Virus record (IMG/VR): IMGVR_UViG_3300046733_000717
Span: 1-42,993 of that record
Strand: one strand, 5' to 3'
Length of the DNA stretch: 42,993 nucleotides
DNA from: a virus
The position numbers and the translations under genes were made by a program. Below the pieces are notes generated by a model. The model saw only the letters and a list, made by a program, of their open reading frames with translations, searched no databases and had not been told where the DNA came from. How positions within the stretch are numbered: position 1 is the first letter of the stretch; each line of letters begins with the position of its first letter. Below are positions 20,532 through 39,516 of this stretch, in pieces.

Positions 20532-20551
20532 TAAAAAAATTAAATTAATTT

Positions 20552-20580
20552 AAAAACCCTTGTTTTATAAGGGTTTTTTT
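20552..20580 (+). terminator. Rho-independent terminator
   Basis: AAAAACCCTT and AAGGGTTTTT arms flank the loop GTTTTAT, followed by a T run. The same stem-loop recurs at 23576. It ends the 18-20.5 kb transcription unit just before a new promoter. Confidence 0.9.
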
Positions 20581-20603
20581 ATGACTTTTTTTAACTTATC
20601 TGG

Positions 20604-20632
20604 TTGACAAGCAAGACGTCTTACTGTATACT
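20604..20632 (+). promoter_or_regulatory. Promoter with palindromic operator, copy 1
   Basis: TTGACA at 20604-20609, a 17-base spacer and TATACT at 20627-20632. The spacer contains the perfect palindrome AAGACGTCTT (20613-20622). Downstream, TATACT-GTA-AGTATA forms a second inverted repeat over the -10 and initial transcript, then AGTTAATAAAAAACAGGAG leads to the gene at 20669. Confidence 0.88.
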
Positions 20633-20668
20633 GTAAGTATAGTTAATAAAAAACAGGAGTTAAAAAAC

Positions 20669-21432: not shown

Positions 21433-21551
21433 TGAAAAGTAAAAGTATTATAATTGTATTGTTAGTTATATCGGCAGTTTATATTGTTATAGATTCTAAA
21501 AATAAAACAGATGCACTTAACTATAAAAACTCATTTATAGAAGTAGATTAA
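21432..21551 (+). CDS. 39-residue single-pass membrane peptide
   Basis: ATG at 21432 shares its first base with the previous TAA. Residues 5-21 (SIIIVLLVISAVYIVI) form a membrane helix with a short basic N-terminus and a polar C-terminal tail. Coupled translation and a clean hydrophobic profile support a real micro-protein; function unknown. Confidence 0.5.
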   Translation: MKSKSIIIVLLVISAVYIVIDSKNKTDALNYKNSFIEVD

Positions 21552-21555
21552 AAGG

Positions 21556-21584
21556 TTGACAAGTAAGATGTCTTACTGTATACT
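21556..21584 (+). promoter_or_regulatory. Promoter with palindromic operator, copy 2
   Basis: TTGACA at 21556-21561 and TATACT at 21579-21584 with a 17-base spacer. The spacer is filled by AGTAAGA-TG-TCTTACT, perfect 7-base arms. It is identical to copy 3 except one spacer base and lies exactly 240 bases before it. Confidence 0.9.
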
Positions 21585-21614
21585 GTAAGTATAGTTAATA
21601 AAAAAAGGAACATT

Positions 21615-21791
21615 ATGAAAACATTTACATTTGAAGCTATGGGTAGAACATTTACTGCAAAAGCAGAAAACGGATTAGACGTGATGGAAGATGCTAACAA
21701 AGCTATATTGTGGCCTAATTGGAAAGACGGAATGTGGGACCAAGTAAGTGAAACAAAGTTTGTTTGGGTATTGGGTAACTTTTTTGATTAA
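21615..21791 (+). CDS. Small protein, 58 aa, behind operator-promoter copy 2
   Basis: ATG 21615 follows AAAGGAACATT. The protein is MKTFTFEAMGRTFTAKAENG at the N-terminus, then a helix and a Trp-rich end (LWPNWKDGMWDQVS, FVWVLGNFFD). It is a monocistronic unit with its own promoter on each side. Function unknown. Confidence 0.65.
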   Translation: MKTFTFEAMGRTFTAKAENGLDVMEDANKAILWPNWKDGMWDQVSETKFVWVLGNFFD

Positions 21792-21795
21792 AAGG

Positions 21796-21824
21796 TTGAC
21801 AAGTAAGAAGTCTTACTGTATACT
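21796..21824 (+). promoter_or_regulatory. Promoter with palindromic operator, copy 3
   Basis: TTGACA at 21796-21801, a 17-base spacer and TATACT at 21819-21824. The spacer holds AGTAAGA-AG-TCTTACT. Downstream GTAAGTATAGTTAATAAAA matches copies 1 and 2. It drives the 21861 gene and probably the ligase. Confidence 0.9.
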
Positions 21825-21860
21825 GTAAGTATAGTTAATAAAAAACAAGGAGAAGTAAAT

Positions 21861-22199: not shown

Positions 22200-22354
22200 T
22201 GCAAAAAATGGATCAAGCTACCATTGAGTTGTACGAACGCAGAATAGATGCTTGTGTTCGTACTGCTAAACAAGCTGAAAAAGGCAGTTGGGCAGAAAAG
22301 TTTTGGATGCAAACTGCAAATACAATTCTTAAAAAACTTCGTAGGAATACTTAA
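22199..22354 (+). CDS. Small basic helical protein, 51 aa
   Basis: It overlaps the upstream stop and the downstream ATG by one base each (TAATG at both ends). It is one or two amphipathic basic helices (IELYERRIDACVRTAKQAEK, then WMQTANTILKKLRRNT). Coupling on both sides supports translation. It may be a partner or coupling device for the ligase; function unknown. Confidence 0.6.
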   Translation: MQKMDQATIELYERRIDACVRTAKQAEKGSWAEKFWMQTANTILKKLRRNT

Positions 22355-23493
22355 TGAAAAATATAATTAAATTACCAACTCTTTTTAAACGTGATACAAC
22401 CGGCAAGATTCGTATGTGGGAAGTTGAATATGCCGAAGGAATCCTAATAGGATTAGAAGTTACTGATCAAGGCAGTGCAGGTACCAGAACAATTAGTGGT
22501 CTAGTTGATGGACAAAAAGTCACTAGTGAATGGAATCTAAGTACTCCAAAAAATGTTGGTAAAGCAAATGAAACAACCAGTTTAAGTCAAGCACAGGCAG
22601 AAGCCCAAGCATTATGGGCAAAGCGTTCAGAAAAAGAGTATTTTGAAGATGTTAACGCCATCGACTCTTATGAAAAATTTAAGCCAATGCTTGCACATGA
22701 TTACACTAAACGTCCACAGGAATCAGGTTGGAGTCAGCCTAAGCTAGATGGTATTCGTTGTGTAGTTGATAAAAATGGCATGTGGACACGTGCTGGTAAA
22801 CCTATTACAAGTTGCCCACATATTTGGGAATCACTTAAAGGTTACATGGAGCAGAATCCACATCACATACTAGATGGTGAACTTTATAATCATGAACTAA
22901 AAGCAGACTTTAATAAGATTACAAGTTTGGTTCGTAAGTTAAAAAGCACACCAGAAGATATTGCAGAAGCCGAAAGTCTTGTACAATATCACGTGTATGA
23001 TATGTTTGATAGTGTAGTACCTAATATGAAGTTTACAAATCGTGTTAAGCAAGCATATTGGGCTAACAACGAATATGTTAAAATTGTATCTACTGATTAC
23101 TGTGAAAACCAAGCACAATTAGATGAACAATATAGTATGTACATGGAGCAAGGCTACGAAGGACAGATGGTACGTAATGATACTTCATACGAAAGCAAGC
23201 GAAGCAAAAACTTGCTAAAACGTAAAGAGTTCATTACAGAAGAATTTACTGTTATTCAAATGTTAGAAGGACAAGGCAATTGGTCCGGACATGCTAAACG
23301 TTTTGTTCTTAGGGATAAAGAAGGTAAAGAATTTGGTAGTGGAATTAGAGGACAACAAGCACAGTTATCAAAATTGTGGGAATCTAAGAATGCACCGAAT
23401 TGGGCTACATGTAGATACTTTGAATTAACGCCAGATGGTGTTCCACGTTTTCCGGTTATAGTAGACTACGGATATGGTGAAAGAAGCGACTAG
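22354..23493 (+). CDS. ATP-dependent DNA ligase with N-terminal WGR-like extension
   Basis: 379 residues. Motif I is QPKLDGIRC near residue 130 (adenylated Lys), motif III DGELYN, motif IV YEGQMVRND and motif V KNLLKRKEF, so all catalytic residues are present. A C-terminal OB-fold region follows (GQGNWSGHAKRFVLRDKEGK...). Residues 15-85 resemble a WGR-like domain (RMWEVEYAEGILIGLEVTDQ). It seals nicks in phage DNA replication and repair. This intact ligase contrasts with the degenerate T4-type copy at 35407. Confidence 0.9.
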   Translation: MKNIIKLPTLFKRDTTGKIRMWEVEYAEGILIGLEVTDQGSAGTRTISGLVDGQKVTSEWNLSTPKNVGKANETTSLSQAQAEAQALWAKRSEKEYFEDVNAIDSYEKFKPMLAHDYTKRPQESGWSQPKLDGIRCVVDKNGMWTRAGKPITSCPHIWESLKGYMEQNPHHILDGELYNHELKADFNKITSLVRKLKSTPEDIAEAESLVQYHVYDMFDSVVPNMKFTNRVKQAYWANNEYVKIVSTDYCENQAQLDEQYSMYMEQGYEGQMVRNDTSYESKRSKNLLKRKEFITEEFTVIQMLEGQGNWSGHAKRFVLRDKEGKEFGSGIRGQQAQLSKLWESKNAPNWATCRYFELTPDGVPRFPVIVDYGYGERSD

Positions 23494-23570
23494 TGACGGT
23501 ATTTGACGTGTTTATAGGCGTGATTATAGCCAACTATGCATTAGGTTTTATTAATCTTTTTTTAAATTAA
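23493..23570 (+). CDS. Possible 25-residue hydrophobic peptide
   Basis: A GTG overlapping the ligase stop codon opens a frame encoding a nearly continuous hydrophobic helix (VFDVFIGVIIANYALGFINL) that ends just before the terminator. It could be a membrane micro-peptide. The non-ATG start and short length make it uncertain. Confidence 0.3.
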   Translation: MTVFDVFIGVIIANYALGFINLFLN

Positions 23571-23575
23571 TTTAG

Positions 23576-23600
23576 AAACCCTTGTTTTATAAGGGTTTTT
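23576..23600 (+). terminator. Rho-independent terminator, second copy
   Basis: AAACCCTT and AAGGGTTT with loop GTTTTAT followed by T residues. Stem and loop match the terminator at 20552. It is again followed within 20 bases by TCTGGTTGACAA of the next operator-promoter. Confidence 0.9.
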
Positions 23601-23615
23601 ATTTGACTTTTCTGG

Positions 23616-23644
23616 TTGACAACCAAGACATCTTATCATATACT
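23616..23644 (+). promoter_or_regulatory. Promoter with operator, divergent copy 4
   Basis: TTGACA at 23616-23621, a 17-base spacer and TATACT at 23639-23644. The operator is partly degraded (CCAAGACATCTTATC), while the downstream TATACTGTAAGTATAGTTAA is fully conserved. It drives 23676 and the alarmone hydrolase. Confidence 0.85.
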
Positions 23645-23675
23645 GTAAGTATAGTTAAACAAAAGGAGTTACAAA

Positions 23676-24011
23676 ATGCAAACACAAATAGAAACACTAA
23701 AAGGTAAAATTAAAGCAGATTACATTAATTGGACTACTGCTGGTGGTACAAAAGAATTGTCAGGTTACTTTAAAGAAACTGTTGATAATTTTGATGATAG
23801 TATCACTGTTAAAACAGGTAAAAAATATATCAAGATCATACGTGATAATGGTGTATGGGGTTTCATTGTTAACACAGACGATGACAAATTGTTTAAAAAA
23901 GGTGATATCCTTAAAGCCGCAGGTTACAATGCACCAGCTAGGAATGCCGCACGTGGTAACGTATTTGAAGATTACAGTGTAGCATGGACTGGTCCACATT
24001 ACTTAAAATAG
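23676..24011 (+). CDS. Conserved small phage/plasmid protein, 111 aa
   Basis: After AAAGGAG. The pattern TGKKYIKIIRDNGVWGFIVN then KGDILKAAGYNAPARNAARGN is recognisable: a KYxKI strand, a GF(I/V) strand, a G-D-(I/V)-x-KxA turn and an AR-GN end. It occurs widely in tailed phages without known function. It is first in the copy-4 transcription unit, so probably early. Confidence 0.65.
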   Translation: MQTQIETLKGKIKADYINWTTAGGTKELSGYFKETVDNFDDSITVKTGKKYIKIIRDNGVWGFIVNTDDDKLFKKGDILKAAGYNAPARNAARGNVFEDYSVAWTGPHYLK

Positions 24012-25559: not shown

Positions 25560-26147
25560 ATGATAATACCAACAGTAATTGAGAGTACAGGAAGAGGCGA
25601 ACGTGCATATGACATCTATAGTCGTTTGCTAAAAGATCGTATCGTAATGCTTAATGGCGAAGTTAATGACCATACTGCAAACCTAGTAGTTGCACAGATG
25701 CTATTTTTAGAATCACAAAATAGTTCAGAGGATATTAACTTTTATATTAATAGTCCAGGTGGTGCAGTAACCGCAGGATTGGGCATATATGATACAATGC
25801 AGTTTATTAAATCTTCTGTAAGTACAATTGTAATGGGACAAGCATGTAGCATGGGTAGTTTCCTTGCTATGGCAGGCGAACCAGGCAAACGTTTAGTATT
25901 GCCAAATTCACGTACAATGATTCACCAACCAAGTGGTGGTGCAGGTGGACAAGCAACTGATATGCAAATTCAAGTTGATGAGATTCTTAAGATGAAAAAG
26001 AACCTAACACAAATTTATGTTAATCATAATAGTGCAGGTAAAACATTTGAACAATTAGAAGCGGCAATGGAACGTGATAATTTTATGTCAGCACAAGAAG
26101 CCGTAGATTTCGGCCTAGCTGATAAAGTTGTTACAAGAAAAGCATAA
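25560..26147 (+). CDS. clpP: ATP-dependent Clp protease proteolytic subunit
   Basis: 195 residues, strongly like bacterial ClpP. Ser is in [11 protein letters not shown], His in MIHQPSGG, and Asp in the region [18 protein letters not shown], giving a complete catalytic triad. The protein opens [18 protein letters not shown], which aligns with the mature E. coli N-terminus, so no propeptide needs removal. It should form two stacked heptamers fed by ClpX, encoded at 29439. A strong Shine-Dalgarno (AGGAG) precedes it. Confidence 0.97.
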
Positions 26148-29010: not shown

Positions 29011-29449
29011 TAACGATAGTTACACAGTAACAGCCCCTGATTTAATGCTAACGGAACATGGAATAGGAATATGTATTTCTAGTACCGATGAAGTATTAAT
29101 AACAGAAATAAAAGAACTGTTTGAAAAGTACATAGCTACAAGCGTGGTATTTTTTGTGCAAAACAAAAAAACATCATCATCTACATTGCCATGGATATGG
29201 AATGTGTCCAATACGTGTGACTTTATGATAGTTGATGTAGACACTTGTGCTTGGGAAGATATTATGGCAGCACTTTTAAAATCACAGCAACATCAAAATA
29301 CAGTGTTGTTTTATAGTGATAAGTACAAGAGAAGAGAAACAGTAAAATTGATAAACGCCACAGGAACTAACCTTGTAGTGCGTTCAATACATGACATTAA
29401 TAATTTTGTAAGGTTACAAATGAATCCAGAGTATTTTGATGAAAAGTAA
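29000..29449 (+). CDS. Uncharacterised protein, 149 aa
   Basis: The pattern alternates strands and helices (GIGICISSTDEVLITEIKEL, then VVFFVQNKK, DFMIVDVDTCAWEDIMAALL, TVLFYSDKY), a small Rossmann-like alpha/beta layout similar to a receiver domain. No phospho-acceptor cluster is clear. It overlaps clpX by 11 bases, so it is translated with it and may act with the Clp machinery; that is inference only. Confidence 0.55.
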   Translation: MTIDNDSYTVTAPDLMLTEHGIGICISSTDEVLITEIKELFEKYIATSVVFFVQNKKTSSSTLPWIWNVSNTCDFMIVDVDTCAWEDIMAALLKSQQHQNTVLFYSDKYKRRETVKLINATGTNLVVRSIHDINNFVRLQMNPEYFDEK

Positions 29450-30650
29450 TTTACCACATTGTAATTTTTGTGGCAAAGACACTACACAAATAAGCAAGTT
29501 ATTAGCAGGAGAAAACAATATCCATATTTGTAGTGGATGTGTTGAATTCTGTTATAGCATAGTTAAGAATGATAAAGTTCAAGTAACTGATGCACTAAGT
29601 AAAAAGAAAGTTCTTCCTACACCAAGAGCAATTCATAAATTTTTAGACGAACATGTTATTAGTCAAGATCATGCTAAAAAGACTTTGAGTGTAGCAGTGT
29701 ATAATCATTATAAAAGAATAACTTCTAAAACAAAAACCAAGTTACAAAAAAGTAACGTATTAATTGCAGGTCCAACTGGAACTGGTAAAACGTTAATGGC
29801 ACAAACACTTGCTAAGTTACTTAATGTACCAATGGTAGTAACTGATGCAACCACAATAACTGAAAGTGGATATGCTGGAGATGATTCAGAAGTGCTAATA
29901 CACAAATTGTTTCAAGCAGCTGACTATGATATAGAATCAGCTCAACATGGTATTATATATGTTGACGAAATTGATAAGAAAGCTAAACGTAATGACTATG
30001 TTAGCTTGAGTAGAGACGTATCCGGAGAAGGAGTCCAACAGAGCCTTTTAAAGCTCATGGAAGGTACTATAGTAACGGTTCCGAACAAACCGCAACATAA
30101 CCCGGAGAAAGTGGATATTGACACCAGTGAGATACTATTTGTAGTAGGTGGAGCCTTTGTTGGTCTACAAGATGTTGTGGTTAATCGCCTAGGTAAGTCG
30201 AAGATAGGATTTAACGACGGTTTAGACGCCGATGTAGAACAGTGGGAAACACACTTACAAACACGTGATTTAGTAAAATATGGACTTATACCTGAATTTG
30301 TAGGTAGACTACCATCTGTAAACGTCCTTAGCCCTTTAAATAAGAACGATCTTGTAAAAATACTAACTGAACCCACTGATAGTATAATAGATCAAATAAA
30401 AGAGCTTTTTTTACTTGACAAAATACAAATAGAGTTTACAATAAAAGCATTAGAGGAAGTTGCAGGCATTGCAATTAAAGAAGATATAGGTGCCAGAGGT
30501 TTACGTAAGATATTAGATGAAAAACTCTTGGAAACGCAGTATATGTTACCAGAATTATATAGTCAAGGAATAAGAAAAATTATTATAAATGAACAAGTTA
30601 TTTCTAGGAACGCACAGCCACAATACATTAAAGGTGACAATGCAGAATAG
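29439..30650 (+). CDS. clpX: ClpX, ATP-dependent unfoldase
   Basis: 403 residues from ATG 29439 (an in-frame TTG at 29436 is less likely). The zinc-binding domain is present (CNFCGK near residue 8 and CSGCVEFC near 32). ATPase motifs are GPTGTGKT (Walker A), IIYVDEIDK (Walker B), the pore loop GYAGDD (GYVG in E. coli), KIGF (IGF loop for ClpP docking) and GARGLRKI (sensor 2). It unfolds tagged proteins for ClpP. The IGF motif indicates partnership with ClpP. infC overlaps the end by 11 bases. Confidence 0.97.
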   Translation: MKSNLPHCNFCGKDTTQISKLLAGENNIHICSGCVEFCYSIVKNDKVQVTDALSKKKVLPTPRAIHKFLDEHVISQDHAKKTLSVAVYNHYKRITSKTKTKLQKSNVLIAGPTGTGKTLMAQTLAKLLNVPMVVTDATTITESGYAGDDSEVLIHKLFQAADYDIESAQHGIIYVDEIDKKAKRNDYVSLSRDVSGEGVQQSLLKLMEGTIVTVPNKPQHNPEKVDIDTSEILFVVGGAFVGLQDVVVNRLGKSKIGFNDGLDADVEQWETHLQTRDLVKYGLIPEFVGRLPSVNVLSPLNKNDLVKILTEPTDSIIDQIKELFLLDKIQIEFTIKALEEVAGIAIKEDIGARGLRKILDEKLLETQYMLPELYSQGIRKIIINEQVISRNAQPQYIKGDNAE

Positions 30651-31161
30651 AAATTATAAAAAACGTGAAGAAAAACCTTTTGTTGTTTCAAACGAAAGGA
30701 TAAGACACAAAGAAATTAGAGTATCAGCTGAACACATGGAAAGCCAGGTCATGTTAACTGCAGATGCTTTAAAAGAGGCCAGATCGTTAGGTTTAGATTT
30801 GATACTAGTTGCTGATAAAGCATCACCACCAGTATGTAAAATAACTGATCTTAATAAACATCTGTACTCAATAAAACAAAAAGACAAACTGGCAAAGAAA
30901 AAACAACGAGAGAGCGTTGTAGAAACCAAAGAAATACGCATGGGTCTAAATATTGATACGCATGACTTAGAAACAAAAGCCAAAGCGGCTCGTAAGTTTT
31001 TGGATAAAAATAACAAACTAATGGTTACGGTGTTATTAAGAGGTAGAGAACGTGGCAGACAGGACATGGCAAGAGAATTGCTAAATACATTTGCTCACTT
31101 ATTAGAAGTAGAGTATGAACAAATATCCTCACAGAATAACAGAGTAACCGGGAAAATATAA
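30640..31161 (+). CDS. infC: Translation initiation factor IF-3
   Basis: 173 residues from ATG 30640, overlapping the clpX stop by 11 bases; a longer frame into clpX is rejected. N-domain SNERIRHKEIRVS aligns with the bacterial NxxIR motif and the linker-proximal PPVCKITDLNKHLY is clear. C-domain KEIRMGLNIDTHDLETKA and LLRGRERGR match the 30S-binding face. The C-terminus stops at NNRVTGKI, a little short of the cellular MIMVLAP end. Bacterial infC often starts with AUU for autocontrol; this one uses ATG, so it would escape that control. Confidence 0.94.
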   Translation: MQNRNYKKREEKPFVVSNERIRHKEIRVSAEHMESQVMLTADALKEARSLGLDLILVADKASPPVCKITDLNKHLYSIKQKDKLAKKKQRESVVETKEIRMGLNIDTHDLETKAKAARKFLDKNNKLMVTVLLRGRERGRQDMARELLNTFAHLLEVEYEQISSQNNRVTGKI

Positions 31162-35406: not shown

Positions 35407-36381
35407 ATGAGCAAAGTACATCTATTATCAGAAATTATACAAAACTTAACTGTAGCACCTTCGCAAGAAGATAAACTAGACATTCTAGAACAATACAGCA
35501 AAGAAGTTATATTGAAGCGGGTTATAAGTATTTCTTATAACCCGTGGATCAATCTTAACATGTCAGATTTTACACCAAAGCGTATGGGTAAAAAGTTTGG
35601 CATGGGCATTGCAAAATTCACTCACATCATAGACGATATCATCCAGGAAAAATATACTGACAAAGAAAAGTATTTTTCATGTAATATGGCAATGCAACAT
35701 ATGAATCAATATGATGCTCCAATATTTGTATCAGTTATCAGACAAGATCTAGACTTAGGTTTAGAAATAGATACAATCAATAAAGTATGGCCTGGATTAA
35801 TAATGGGCTATCCTATTAGTACACCTTCCACAATAGATTACAAAACATTTAAATTATTTCCAGCATCTGTACAGCAATGTTCTAGAGGTTTACGTGTTAA
35901 CATTATTATACACAATGATGTAGTTACTTACAATGATAAAAATGGTAATGCAATATCGGGTTGGGATATGTATGATCAACAATTTAAAAACCTAGCACAA
36001 GGGCAAAGTACTGTATATGATGGACACGCAGTTGTAGCAAATGGTCCTAATATTGTAGAAACTGATAATGAAAAAGTATTAGAAGCACAACCAGAAGATA
36101 TTAAGTTTATGCTATGGGATGTAATACGCTATGATGGATTTATTGAAGGTAAAGACACACGTATTGGATACAACTGGCGTTATAATGGATTGGAACATAT
36201 GTGTATACTTGCTATAGAGAAAAATCCACAACCATGTTATTCTGTTTCTAAAGCAGAACTTGTAGGTAGTCAAGAACAGTTAGAACTTACAATTAATAAA
36301 ATAGGATCTTGTGTTGTTAAAAGTTTAGATGGTACGTGGAAACATGGTATTGATGACACGCAACTTATTTACGAGAAATAA
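35407..36381 (+). CDS. Degenerate T4-type (gp30-like) DNA ligase, probably inactive
   Basis: 324 residues. Homology to T4 ligase is read from KLDILEQYSKEVILKRVISI, RQDLDLGLEIDTINKVWPGL, FKLFPASVQQCSRGLRV, FMLWDVIRYDGF and LDGTWKHGIDDTQLIYEK. The nucleotidyl motif KxDG is CSRG, so the adenylated Lys is lost. Motif III DGEL is DGHA and motif IV EG is changed. The protein ends where motif V begins, so the OB domain is missing (T4 ligase is 487 aa). The frame is fully intact, which suggests a retained non-catalytic role. Confidence 0.75.
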   Translation: MSKVHLLSEIIQNLTVAPSQEDKLDILEQYSKEVILKRVISISYNPWINLNMSDFTPKRMGKKFGMGIAKFTHIIDDIIQEKYTDKEKYFSCNMAMQHMNQYDAPIFVSVIRQDLDLGLEIDTINKVWPGLIMGYPISTPSTIDYKTFKLFPASVQQCSRGLRVNIIIHNDVVTYNDKNGNAISGWDMYDQQFKNLAQGQSTVYDGHAVVANGPNIVETDNEKVLEAQPEDIKFMLWDVIRYDGFIEGKDTRIGYNWRYNGLEHMCILAIEKNPQPCYSVSKAELVGSQEQLELTINKIGSCVVKSLDGTWKHGIDDTQLIYEK

Positions 36382-37120
36382 TCTTCTTAATATAATGAGC
36401 ACCTAAATGATCGTAAAGATTATCAAAGAATTGAAACTTACTCCAAGCTCTACATCTTCCACGTAGTTTATCTTTTAAACGCTGAAAGTAACTCATGTTA
36501 TTACTAATTTTATTAGTATAAGACATGTAGTATAATTCACCTATATGATGATAATATCCAAATGGTGGAACTTGTGGAACAATGTCATTGTTATTAACAA
36601 AACGATATGCTTCTATATCTTTAAATTGTTCTCCCCATTCTTTATTTCCAGTTCTAGGACATCCATAAGTATAAAGCACTTGATTAGCACCTAATGCATG
36701 AAATCTACTTGTACATATAGTTGCCATTGCGGCTCCTAAACTATGTCCAGTAATTACAAGTTTTTTAGTAGTTACTTTTTTACCTAACCATTTTCTAATG
36801 TTAGGATAAAGTTTATCTAATTCACCTTTGAATCCCGAATGTACATGTCCTTTAGTTTCTGCATCTGCAGGCCATGCTTTAATATCAGCAATAATATCAC
36901 TAAATTGCGTAGGTTCTGTTCCTCTAAATGCAATTACAATATAGTCATGCATTGTAATTCCATATGCTTGTGCATTACCTACTTCAAAGAATTTTAAATT
37001 TGTATGTTTTATTTTTTTATCAGTTAAAAACTTTTTCATTGCATCTGTATCTTCGTAAGCATATTCGCAAATCCATGCACATAATTCTGCTAGGTCCCAA
37101 TTTATAGTTTTATTTTTCAT
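36365..37120 (-). CDS. Class 3 lipase-like hydrolase
   Basis: 251 residues. VITGHSLGAAMATI holds the nucleophile Ser in GxSxG. YGCPRTGN, NNNDIVPQVPP (catalytic Asp) and a C-terminal YDHLGAHYI (His) complete the class 3 lipase pattern, and DYIVIAFRGTEP is the usual oxyanion-side strand. No signal peptide is seen. It could attack host lipids at lysis or modify membranes. It lies on the reverse strand, converging with the ligase remnant (17-base overlap). Confidence 0.87.
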   Translation of the reverse strand: MKNKTINWDLAELCAWICEYAYEDTDAMKKFLTDKKIKHTNLKFFEVGNAQAYGITMHDYIVIAFRGTEPTQFSDIIADIKAWPADAETKGHVHSGFKGELDKLYPNIRKWLGKKVTTKKLVITGHSLGAAMATICTSRFHALGANQVLYTYGCPRTGNKEWGEQFKDIEAYRFVNNNDIVPQVPPFGYYHHIGELYYMSYTNKISNNMSYFQRLKDKLRGRCRAWSKFQFFDNLYDHLGAHYIKKIISRK

Positions 37121-38059: not shown

Positions 38060-38554
38060 TTGAAAGTTATTAAAGATTCAATTGAAAACTTTTTTAAGTG
38101 GGTATCTAATAGTGAGTTAGTTGAACTAACTGACATAGATTGTTCTGAAGATCCAGTAAGGCCTAAATTAGACTTGGAATTTAGAACATCATTTGGTAGA
38201 AAAATATTTGGTCTAAAAGCTAATAATGAAATACAAGGCATTATATGTATTGCGTATTGTAATGATATTCCACAAAGTGAAAGAGAATTAAACCTATTAA
38301 GTCAGAATGCTAACTTACTTAACAATGCAGATATAGCAGTCGCATATACTGTATGGTCACGTAAGAAAGGCGCTGGCAGAGAAATTGTAACTAAACTAAA
38401 AGAATATTATAAAGACAGAGATGATATTAAACGTTTAGTTACACTTTCGCCACTTACACCAATGGCTACACATTTTCATATTAGCAATGGTGCAAAGTTA
38501 GTACAACATAATTCAGATACACAAAATTTTGAATATATCCAAAATAAAGGTTGA
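38060..38554 (+). CDS. GNAT-like acyltransferase, TTG start
   Basis: 164 residues starting at TTG 38060, seven bases after AGGAG; no nearby ATG fits. The C-terminal half AVAYTVWSRKKGAGREIVTK, then RLVTLSPLTPMATHFHISNG and FEYI follow the acetyl-CoA-binding (R/Q-x-x-G-x-G) and beta-bulge pattern of acyltransferases. The substrate is unknown. Its TGA overlaps the -35 of the tmRNA promoter. Confidence 0.65.
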   Translation: MKVIKDSIENFFKWVSNSELVELTDIDCSEDPVRPKLDLEFRTSFGRKIFGLKANNEIQGIICIAYCNDIPQSERELNLLSQNANLLNNADIAVAYTVWSRKKGAGREIVTKLKEYYKDRDDIKRLVTLSPLTPMATHFHISNGAKLVQHNSDTQNFEYIQNKG

Positions 38555-38581
38555 CAGAATATCAACAAGAGTGTATAAATA
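38551..38581 (+). promoter_or_regulatory. tmRNA promoter, combined early and late elements
   Basis: TTGACA at 38551-38556, a 17-base spacer and TATAAA(TA) at 38574-38581. The last eight bases are a perfect T4 late TATAAATA box, so one site may serve both sigma70-type and late transcription. The predicted start is about 38587. Confidence 0.75.
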
Positions 38582-38586
38582 TAACT

Positions 38587-38894
38587 TGTAACGTTGAAGC
38601 AATTCAAACGCTATTCAGGACCTCGGGGCAGTACCGAGCGACTCCACCAAAAGCACTTGTAGATGAGATATTGGATCACTGCTTGCGAGTGCTTTTGATG
38701 GGGTCGAAATAGGATCGACTGGTAGTTAATAGAGTATGTGGAGTTATCCGGATCTAAGCACGGTTATCGCGAAGAAACTTTATAATTGCAAATAACAATT
38801 ATGCGCCAGCAATGGCATTAGCGGCTTAGTTTAACTAAGCACGTAGGGGTGGGTACTACCTGGCAACAGAAGTGCCTCCATTAACGAAGATGGG
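38587..38894 (+). ncRNA. ssrA: Circularly permuted two-piece tmRNA (ssrA)
   Basis: The acceptor piece comes first and ends CGACTCC-A-CCA (38639-38649), preceded by a T-arm-like CTCGG/CCGAG. An intervening segment has AAAAGCACT...AGTGCTTTT arms for processing. The coding piece begins GGGGTCG (38700-38706), pairing with CGACTCC. The tag frame is GCA at 38788 to TAG at 38829: ANNNYAPAMALAA, so the tag is AANNNYAPAMALAA with the charged Ala. GCTTAG-TTTAA-CTAAGC is the stop-codon hairpin. This arrangement is typical of alphaproteobacteria. Outer ends are approximate. Confidence 0.93.
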
Positions 38895-38919
38895 ACCATT
38901 TATAAATTAAGGAACATTT

Positions 38920-39516
38920 ATGAAAAATATAATCATTACAGCAGCAATGGCTGCCTTTATCTCGTCTACGGCAATCGCAGACGATTATGATAATACATCA
39001 TTAACAATGGCTGCCGAAGGCTCTGTTTATGGTGTTGAGTTATCAACAAACGATACTACAAGATCAGTAAGTGTGTATAACACTAACGGTTCTTTAGATT
39101 TGGGCGTACAGTTATCAGATAACGGTACAAACAGAGATTACAATGTATCTGTTGGTAAAACTATCGAAATGCCACTAGGTTCAGCTGAAACTACACTTGC
39201 AACAGCATATGTATCAGGTGAAGCTGAATACAATTGGGGCGATAGCTTTACTAAAAGTGAAATTCATTTAACGCCAAAAGTTGGAGTTAAAACAAGTATC
39301 GCTAACTTTACACCATACGGTGAATTAGGCTACGGTCTAAAATCAATCGAAGGTGATTACACAGATATCAATAGAGATACACCATTTGCAGAAATTGGTA
39401 CATCACTAAGATTAACTGATGCTACTTCATTAAAAGCAGGCATCAAGCAATCAATGAATAACGATTGGGACAAAACTGATCGTGAAGTTGGTGTTAAATT
39501 AACTGTATCGTTCTAA
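38920..39516 (+). CDS. Phage-encoded outer-membrane beta-barrel protein
   Basis: 198 residues. A Sec signal peptide (KNIIITAAMAAFISSTAIA, residues 2-20) is followed by alternating beta strands with Thr/Ser/Asn turns and no long helices. The C-terminus VKLTVSF ends in Phe with the outer-membrane beta-signal pattern. It would be exported and inserted by the host Bam machinery. Phages can use such proteins to change permeability or block other phages. It is 25 bases from the tmRNA end, with AAGGAAC before the ATG. Confidence 0.75.
   Translation: MKNIIITAAMAAFISSTAIADDYDNTSLTMAAEGSVYGVELSTNDTTRSVSVYNTNGSLDLGVQLSDNGTNRDYNVSVGKTIEMPLGSAETTLATAYVSGEAEYNWGDSFTKSEIHLTPKVGVKTSIANFTPYGELGYGLKSIEGDYTDINRDTPFAEIGTSLRLTDATSLKAGIKQSMNNDWDKTDREVGVKLTVSF

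Follow-up and report, generated by a model that had tools for sequence, protein, structure and literature searches.

The locus studied here raises the question of whether a tmRNA gene carried by a marine virus works for that virus, where such a gene comes from, and which protease would dispose of the proteins that it tags. tmRNA frees stuck ribosomes and marks unfinished proteins for destruction, which is normally carried out by the ClpX/ClpP protease, and permuted tmRNA genes give rise to a two-piece mature RNA. The window, i.e. the whole stretch of 42,993 nt that was analysed, is the linear IMG/VR virus record IMGVR_UViG_3300046733_000717. A first-pass annotation, made from the letters alone, had proposed a permuted tmRNA of the alphaproteobacterial type at 38587-38894. 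The type was upheld by ARAGORN, by two Rfam models and by covariation; the span was close, with Rfam placing the complete, circularly permuted gene at 38547-38882 on the plus strand instead. The covariance-model check that the annotation had suggested favoured the permuted form: RF01849 (alpha_tmRNA) scored 114.5 bits over 38547-38882 (E 1.1e-30, gathering score 50) and RF04321 (tmRNA_permuted) 101 bits (gathering score 47), and none of the one-piece tmRNA models in Rfam rose above its own cut-off in the window. ARAGORN called a permuted tmRNA (tmRNA*) at 38556-38920 with the encoded tag ANNNYAPAMALAA. The features of the gene, all on the plus strand, are as follows.

38551-38579 (+): promoter-like TTGACA-N17-TATAAA just 5' of the tmRNA (sequence and exact pattern search)
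38588-38649 (+): acceptor (3' tRNA-like) piece, 5' end approximate, ending in an encoded CCA (RF04321 and RF01849 alignments)
38622-38638 (+): T-arm of the acceptor piece, 100% paired, with double changes
38639-38645 (+): acceptor 3' strand CGACTCC, then A at 38646 and CCA at 38647-38649 (sequence)
38650-38699 (+): intervening segment of 50 nt, predicted to be removed on maturation (sequence, covariation, minimum free energy)
38649-38657 / 38688-38696 (+): intervening-segment hairpin AAAAGCACT/AGTGCTTTT (sequence, covariation, minimum free energy prediction)
38700-38882 (+): coding (5' tRNA-like and mRNA-like) piece, 3' end approximate (sequence, ARAGORN, Rfam, covariation)
38700-38706 (+): GGGGTCG, the 5' start of the coding piece (sequence)
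38748-38750 / 38761-38763 (+): pseudoknot-1 stem, within the coding piece
38788-38829 (+): tag reading frame ANNNYAPAMALAA-stop, ORF 38788-38826 (sequence, ARAGORN, homologous tags in relatives)
38788-38790 (+): resume codon GCA (sequence)
38827-38829 (+): tag stop codon TAG (sequence)
38824-38829 / 38835-38840 (+): hairpin over the tag stop codon, within the coding piece

The acceptor piece, ending CGACTCC-ACCA, lies 5' of the coding piece, starting GGGGTCG, just where the annotation had put them, and the CCA at 38647-38649 accordingly precedes the GGGG at 38700. The pairing of GGGGTCG with the acceptor end, on which that reading had been staked, is complete: all seven pairs of the stem CGACTCC/GGGGTCG form, including the G3-U70 pair of alanine tRNAs, and together with the CCA this gives a tRNA-Ala-like acceptor stem. 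The tag frame begins with an alanine resume codon and has an Ala-Ala end, both in the ARAGORN call and in relatives. The tag predicted earlier, AANNNYAPAMALAA, is the encoded ANNNYAPAMALAA preceded by the alanine of the charged tmRNA, and is correct in that convention. From what is established for permuted genes, the mature tmRNA of the window would be in two pieces.

Support for this structure was assessed in an alignment of 18 phage tmRNA homologues, in which the acceptor stem, the T-arm, P2, the intervening-segment stem, pseudoknot 1 and the stop-codon hairpin were scored against controls with the partner strand slid by 1-3 columns. At these helices 95.9% of cells were paired, compared with 32-45% (maximum 44.9%) in the slid controls; 21 of 39 pairs had changed on both sides, compared with at most 7; and the covariation score was 0.374, compared with at most 0.080. 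Covariation was seen in the acceptor stem, the T-arm, P2, the intervening stem and pseudoknot 1, and the G3-U70 pair was invariant (18/18). The complementary stem that had been noticed between the two pieces is real, as 6 of its 7 counted pairs covary, and the precursor of the window folds more stably than its shuffles (z -2.82).

The TTGACA and a [TC]ATAAAT element are retained upstream of most of the tmRNA homologues. The TTGACA-N17-TATAAA of the window is absent from the output of a consensus promoter scanner because its -10 ends in A, whereas the scanner's rule needs a final T. Copies of GGTTGACA accompanied by a sigma-70-like -10 are found repeatedly in the window. Reading TATAAATA as a T4 late promoter was rejected, since this 8-mer is rare, with 3 copies in the window, and the TTGACA with 17-nt spacing is conserved. 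Elsewhere, near-identical promoter-like repeats (GGTTGACAAG...GTATACTGTAAGTATAGTTAA) are spread over ~3 kb (20540-20667, 21546-21605, 21780-21845 and 23562-23676), and are repeated in the sister contig G002 too.

The 50-nt intervening segment of the window holds no ORF, whereas in related phages the segment is long and contains a small one. Its length is 204-205 nt in L088, L098, L138 and L173, 266 nt in L071, 332 nt in L186, 264 nt in L093, 156 nt in L145 and 142 nt in L296, the tmRNA of phage Melnitz. The ORFs of L071 and L186 are diverged homologues (alignment score 160 versus a shuffled mean of -20, sd 11; dN 0.40, dS 2.1), and the 62-aa ORF of L088 is 67% identical to the Melnitz gene directly upstream of the Melnitz tmRNA. 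Small genes thus seem to be nested inside the removed part of the tmRNA gene.

The carrier is a fragment of a large T4-type marine phage. The 204-kb sister contig G002 matches nearly the whole window at 89-91%, a T4-type terminase is encoded by G002 and two other relatives, and the terminase of a 222-kb relative (G022) is ~54% identical to those of PA5oct-like jumbo phages. The window encodes a class I ribonucleotide reductase, DNA ligase, IF-3, a GMP-reductase-like protein, peroxiredoxin, ClpP, ClpX and 11 tRNAs. Two genes match the phage ATP-dependent DNA ligase family phrog_114 (22354-23493 and 35407-36381), the second more weakly and without a Pfam match, and a class 3 lipase gene (36365-37120, minus strand; PF01764, 2.1e-24) lies opposite to most genes. 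The protein genes that bear on the tmRNA are these.

25560-26147 (+): phage ClpP, without a propeptide (PF00574, 1.2e-79; alignment to E. coli ClpP in the PDB)
29436-30650 (+): phage ClpX (PF06689, PF07724; PDB alignment; 12 relatives aligned)
30589-31161 (+): IF-3 translation initiation factor homologue with both domains (PF05198, PF00707)
38920-39516 (+): outer-membrane beta-barrel-like protein, Phage_OMP (PF24653, 5.9e-10), consistently located just downstream of the tmRNA in relatives

This neighbourhood is conserved. All 22 IMG/VR relatives of the Phage_OMP gene have a permuted tmRNA, which stands directly upstream of that gene in the 12 relatives mapped in detail. By blastn the window tmRNA had no match at 1e-5 among 50,697 phage records, and isolates were therefore compared via covariance models; two other phage tmRNAs matched Rhodobacter phage RcRudolph, only over ~60 bases at 81-84% identity.

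The tag is conserved as well, and follows the motif ANxNYxP[E/A]MA[LMI]AA. A DNA pattern search found this motif in at least 119 viral contigs, but at only 2 loci when run on 84,980 cellular genomes, each of them on a phage contig binned into a MAG. These contigs carry endolysin, T4-type reductase and glutaredoxin genes, and at one of the loci (L070) a similar signal-peptide protein is encoded directly 3' of the tmRNA. In the collections searched the motif is therefore viral, and, as phage genes are present on both contigs, the two MAG matches were rejected as a guide to the host order. A common tag is expected by construction in the viral set that the pattern retrieved, whereas the set found through the neighbouring Phage_OMP gene is independent of it, and shows the same motif except in one clade with AEDNFAIAA. 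Apart from that clade, the tags keep a fixed 13-residue design, mostly ending A-[LMI]-A-A. The annotation had recommended a comparison with host tmRNA tags; cellular tmRNAs were compared here, and the sampled alphaproteobacterial tags (ANDNEMALAA, ANDNYAEARLAA, ANDNYAPVALAA and others) differ from that of the phage.

The annotation had also taken the gene to support an alphaproteobacterial host or source. The alphaproteobacterial type of the gene stands, but it is a weak pointer to the host. The scores of phage tmRNAs are 92-145 bits (RF01849 or RF04321), compared with 183-313 bits (RF01849) for the listed full-length cellular alphaproteobacterial ones. In a tree built without the tag, a single branch (support 99/92) separates the 43 phage tmRNAs from the 51 cellular ones, and no phage tmRNA groups with the sampled cellular sequences of a host order; a wider tree that includes Melnitz has the same split, but its support is weak (89/31) and some of its branches are long. 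The cellular set sampled alphaproteobacteria without singling out named Pelagibacterales, so that a donor could lie inside that order. Phage Melnitz has an alpha-type tmRNA, and its host is a gammaproteobacterium, OM43 (PMC9004378). Taken with the phage-side scores, the tree and the tag, this makes the gene class look like a long-standing phage lineage that does not name its host; an alphaproteobacterial host is plausible. Relative to G002, the tmRNA of the window is a mosaic, with ~80% identity over 38600-38800 compared with 86-93% immediately 5' of this stretch and 96-98% over 38800-39100, and its body is nearest to that of other phages (91-92%). The drop of the body to ~80% against G002 (L293), between flanks at 86-98%, is an apparent case of recombination between phages inside the gene (38550-38830). 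A MAG of an alphaproteobacterial order (G030) has its own tmRNA and two further permuted ones (L274 and L275), which group with the phage tmRNAs on long branches and probably come from phage contigs.

The probable reading of these observations, which we hold with good confidence, is that the virus has a functional permuted tmRNA of its own, of the alphaproteobacterial type. Its expression, two-piece maturation, charging, use of SmpB and tagging are inferred from the workings of permuted tmRNAs in bacteria. The gene's own sigma-70-like promoter, probably an early one, would drive a single precursor, from which host RNase P and the enzymes that process tRNA 3' ends would excise the hairpin between the pieces, and the acceptor and coding pieces would stay joined by the acceptor stem. 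The host alanyl-tRNA synthetase would charge the RNA via G3-U70 and host SmpB would bring it to stalled ribosomes, where A-ANNNYAPAMALAA would be added and the ribosome freed. In an infection with much mRNA decay, the tmRNA could thereby keep ribosomes available. The tagged fragments would be degraded, most likely by the phage ClpX/ClpP and perhaps by host ClpXP too, and their amino acids returned.

Two other accounts deny the gene this function. It could be a passenger, i.e. a host ssrA gene or fragment gained at an integration site, retained by chance and unused, as ssrA is often used as a phage integration site and prophage fragments of it are known (PMC9004378, PMC11915505). We regard this as highly improbable, given that the gene is whole, that its promoter-like sequence is conserved and compensatory changes run across divergent phages, that it is retained in 22 of 22 relatives, that relatives carry a T4-type terminase, and that in the tree it falls with the phage tmRNAs, apart from the cellular ones, and is not nested near one cellular donor. 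Only slightly less improbable is a decoy that binds SmpB, alanyl-tRNA synthetase or ribosomes and blunts host trans-translation. Inhibitory phage-borne tmRNA forms are known, with the endogenous tmRNA reportedly inhibited by a tag-less form from phage DS6A (PMC11915505), and the partner SmpB was not found in six relatives, including the 204- and 222-kb contigs, whereas ten control genomes were positive; an smpB gene could sit in unsequenced parts of these genomes. A decoy would have no need of a tag frame, of the context of its resume codon or of an Ala-Ala terminus, all of which are conserved.

Which protease would act on the tagged proteins is more evenly poised. Both phage proteins have the hallmarks of their families: in PDB alignments ClpP keeps the catalytic Ser, His and Asp of E. 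coli ClpP and is 82-97% identical in relatives, and ClpX has an intact zinc finger, Walker A/B motifs and IGF loop in the 12 relatives aligned. ClpX is encoded by 15 of 18 relative contigs and ClpP by 14 of 18; in the window they lie ~9 kb and ~13 kb from the tmRNA (about 8-13 kb upstream), and by this spacing the remaining contigs end too near the tmRNA to show them, so that every relative contig long enough encodes both. Nine further viral contigs were retrieved by their tag, and seven of these encode ClpX. A ClpX query matches 184 of 50,697 phage records, a comparison set unmatched for genome size or kinship, and the co-occurrence with the tmRNA may reflect shared phage ancestry and not coupling.

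In E. coli ClpX, the ssrA tag is contacted by positions in GYVG, T199 and RKH, and the R228A substitution makes the enzyme less specific for ssrA (PMC7652416). The phage ClpX lacks these E. coli-type contact loops: across the 12 aligned relatives its pore-1 loop is GYAG instead of GYVG (V154 to A), T199 is S, and RKH is replaced by [QTK][HS]N in a loop 3 residues shorter. With RKH lost and GYAG at the tag-contact positions, the phage protease may not read the phage tag. The same changes favour an account that shares the working tmRNA and differs only in the protease, in which the phage ClpXP acts on other substrates, such as host regulators, and tagged fragments go to host proteases. We consider this a tentative possibility, somewhat short of an even chance, as ClpX, ClpP and the tmRNA occur together in every relative where all are visible and the loop differs in the one clade with a different tag. 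With the tmRNAs L042-L045 (tag AEDNFAIAA), the ClpX of L047, L052 and L054 has PQSN at the RKH region instead of the P[QTK]HN of the others; the tag and its reader may be matched, on the evidence of one clade only. That the phage's own ClpXP degrades the tagged fragments of a working tmRNA is close to evenly balanced in our judgement. The fuller proposal of an own tag-and-destroy pathway, in which a virus-lineage tmRNA would add a tag unseen in cellular genomes and a phage ClpXP with altered loops would be matched to it, keeping host and phage streams partly separate, is unlikely, more so than the use of ClpXP on other substrates.

Phage tmRNAs of the permuted two-piece kind are already published. 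Buchholz et al. (2022) described the two-piece tmRNA of Melnitz and 53 two-piece phage tmRNAs, 50 of them aquatic, and suggested that they serve to maintain ribosomes or to recycle host proteins (PMC9004378); a tmRNA database lists 79 bacteriophage tmRNAs (PMC11915505). Less expected is the pairing with a full ClpXP set, and a narrow literature search found no paper on the joint tmRNA-ClpX-ClpP set. New here are the viral tag motif, the split between phage and cellular tmRNAs, the co-encoded ClpX and ClpP, and the alteration of ClpX at tag-contact residues. Covariation, the tag motif and the constant neighbourhood indicate that the permuted tmRNA of this marine T4-like group is not a stray host capture, and the co-encoded protease makes it a concrete example in which tagging and degradation may both be phage-encoded. 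The finding also counsels caution, as an alpha-type tmRNA on a virus contig is a poor basis for naming a host.

Compared with known systems, the closest likeness is to Methylophilales phage Melnitz and the pelagimyophages (PMC9004378), marine T4-like phages with a permuted alpha-type tmRNA. Melnitz scores similarly with RF01849 (106.7 bits, and 114.5 bits for the window), but its tag is ANDNYVPVDYALAA in place of ANNNYAPAMALAA, its tmRNA has a glutamine riboswitch at the 3' end whereas the window has no riboswitch match in Rfam, and it lies on a long branch, at most ~66% identical to the phages compared here. The cellular alphaproteobacterial tmRNA (RF01849, Caulobacter type) shares the gene order, the T-loop GGCRGUA, G3-U70, the resume region and the two-piece acceptor-stem pairing, and differs in its full-length scores, its tags and its side of the tree. 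Huge phages are alike in genome size (over 200 kb) and in carrying a tmRNA alongside translation genes (IF-3, tRNAs); those of Al-Shayeb et al. (2020) encode tmRNA, SmpB and IF-3 (PMC7162821), whereas SmpB was not found in the six relatives searched here, whose tmRNA is of the permuted alpha type. With bacterial ClpXP, the phage proteins share the zinc finger, the AAA+ motor motifs, the IGF loop and the ClpP triad, but the phage ClpX has GYAG in pore 1 and is without the RKH motif.
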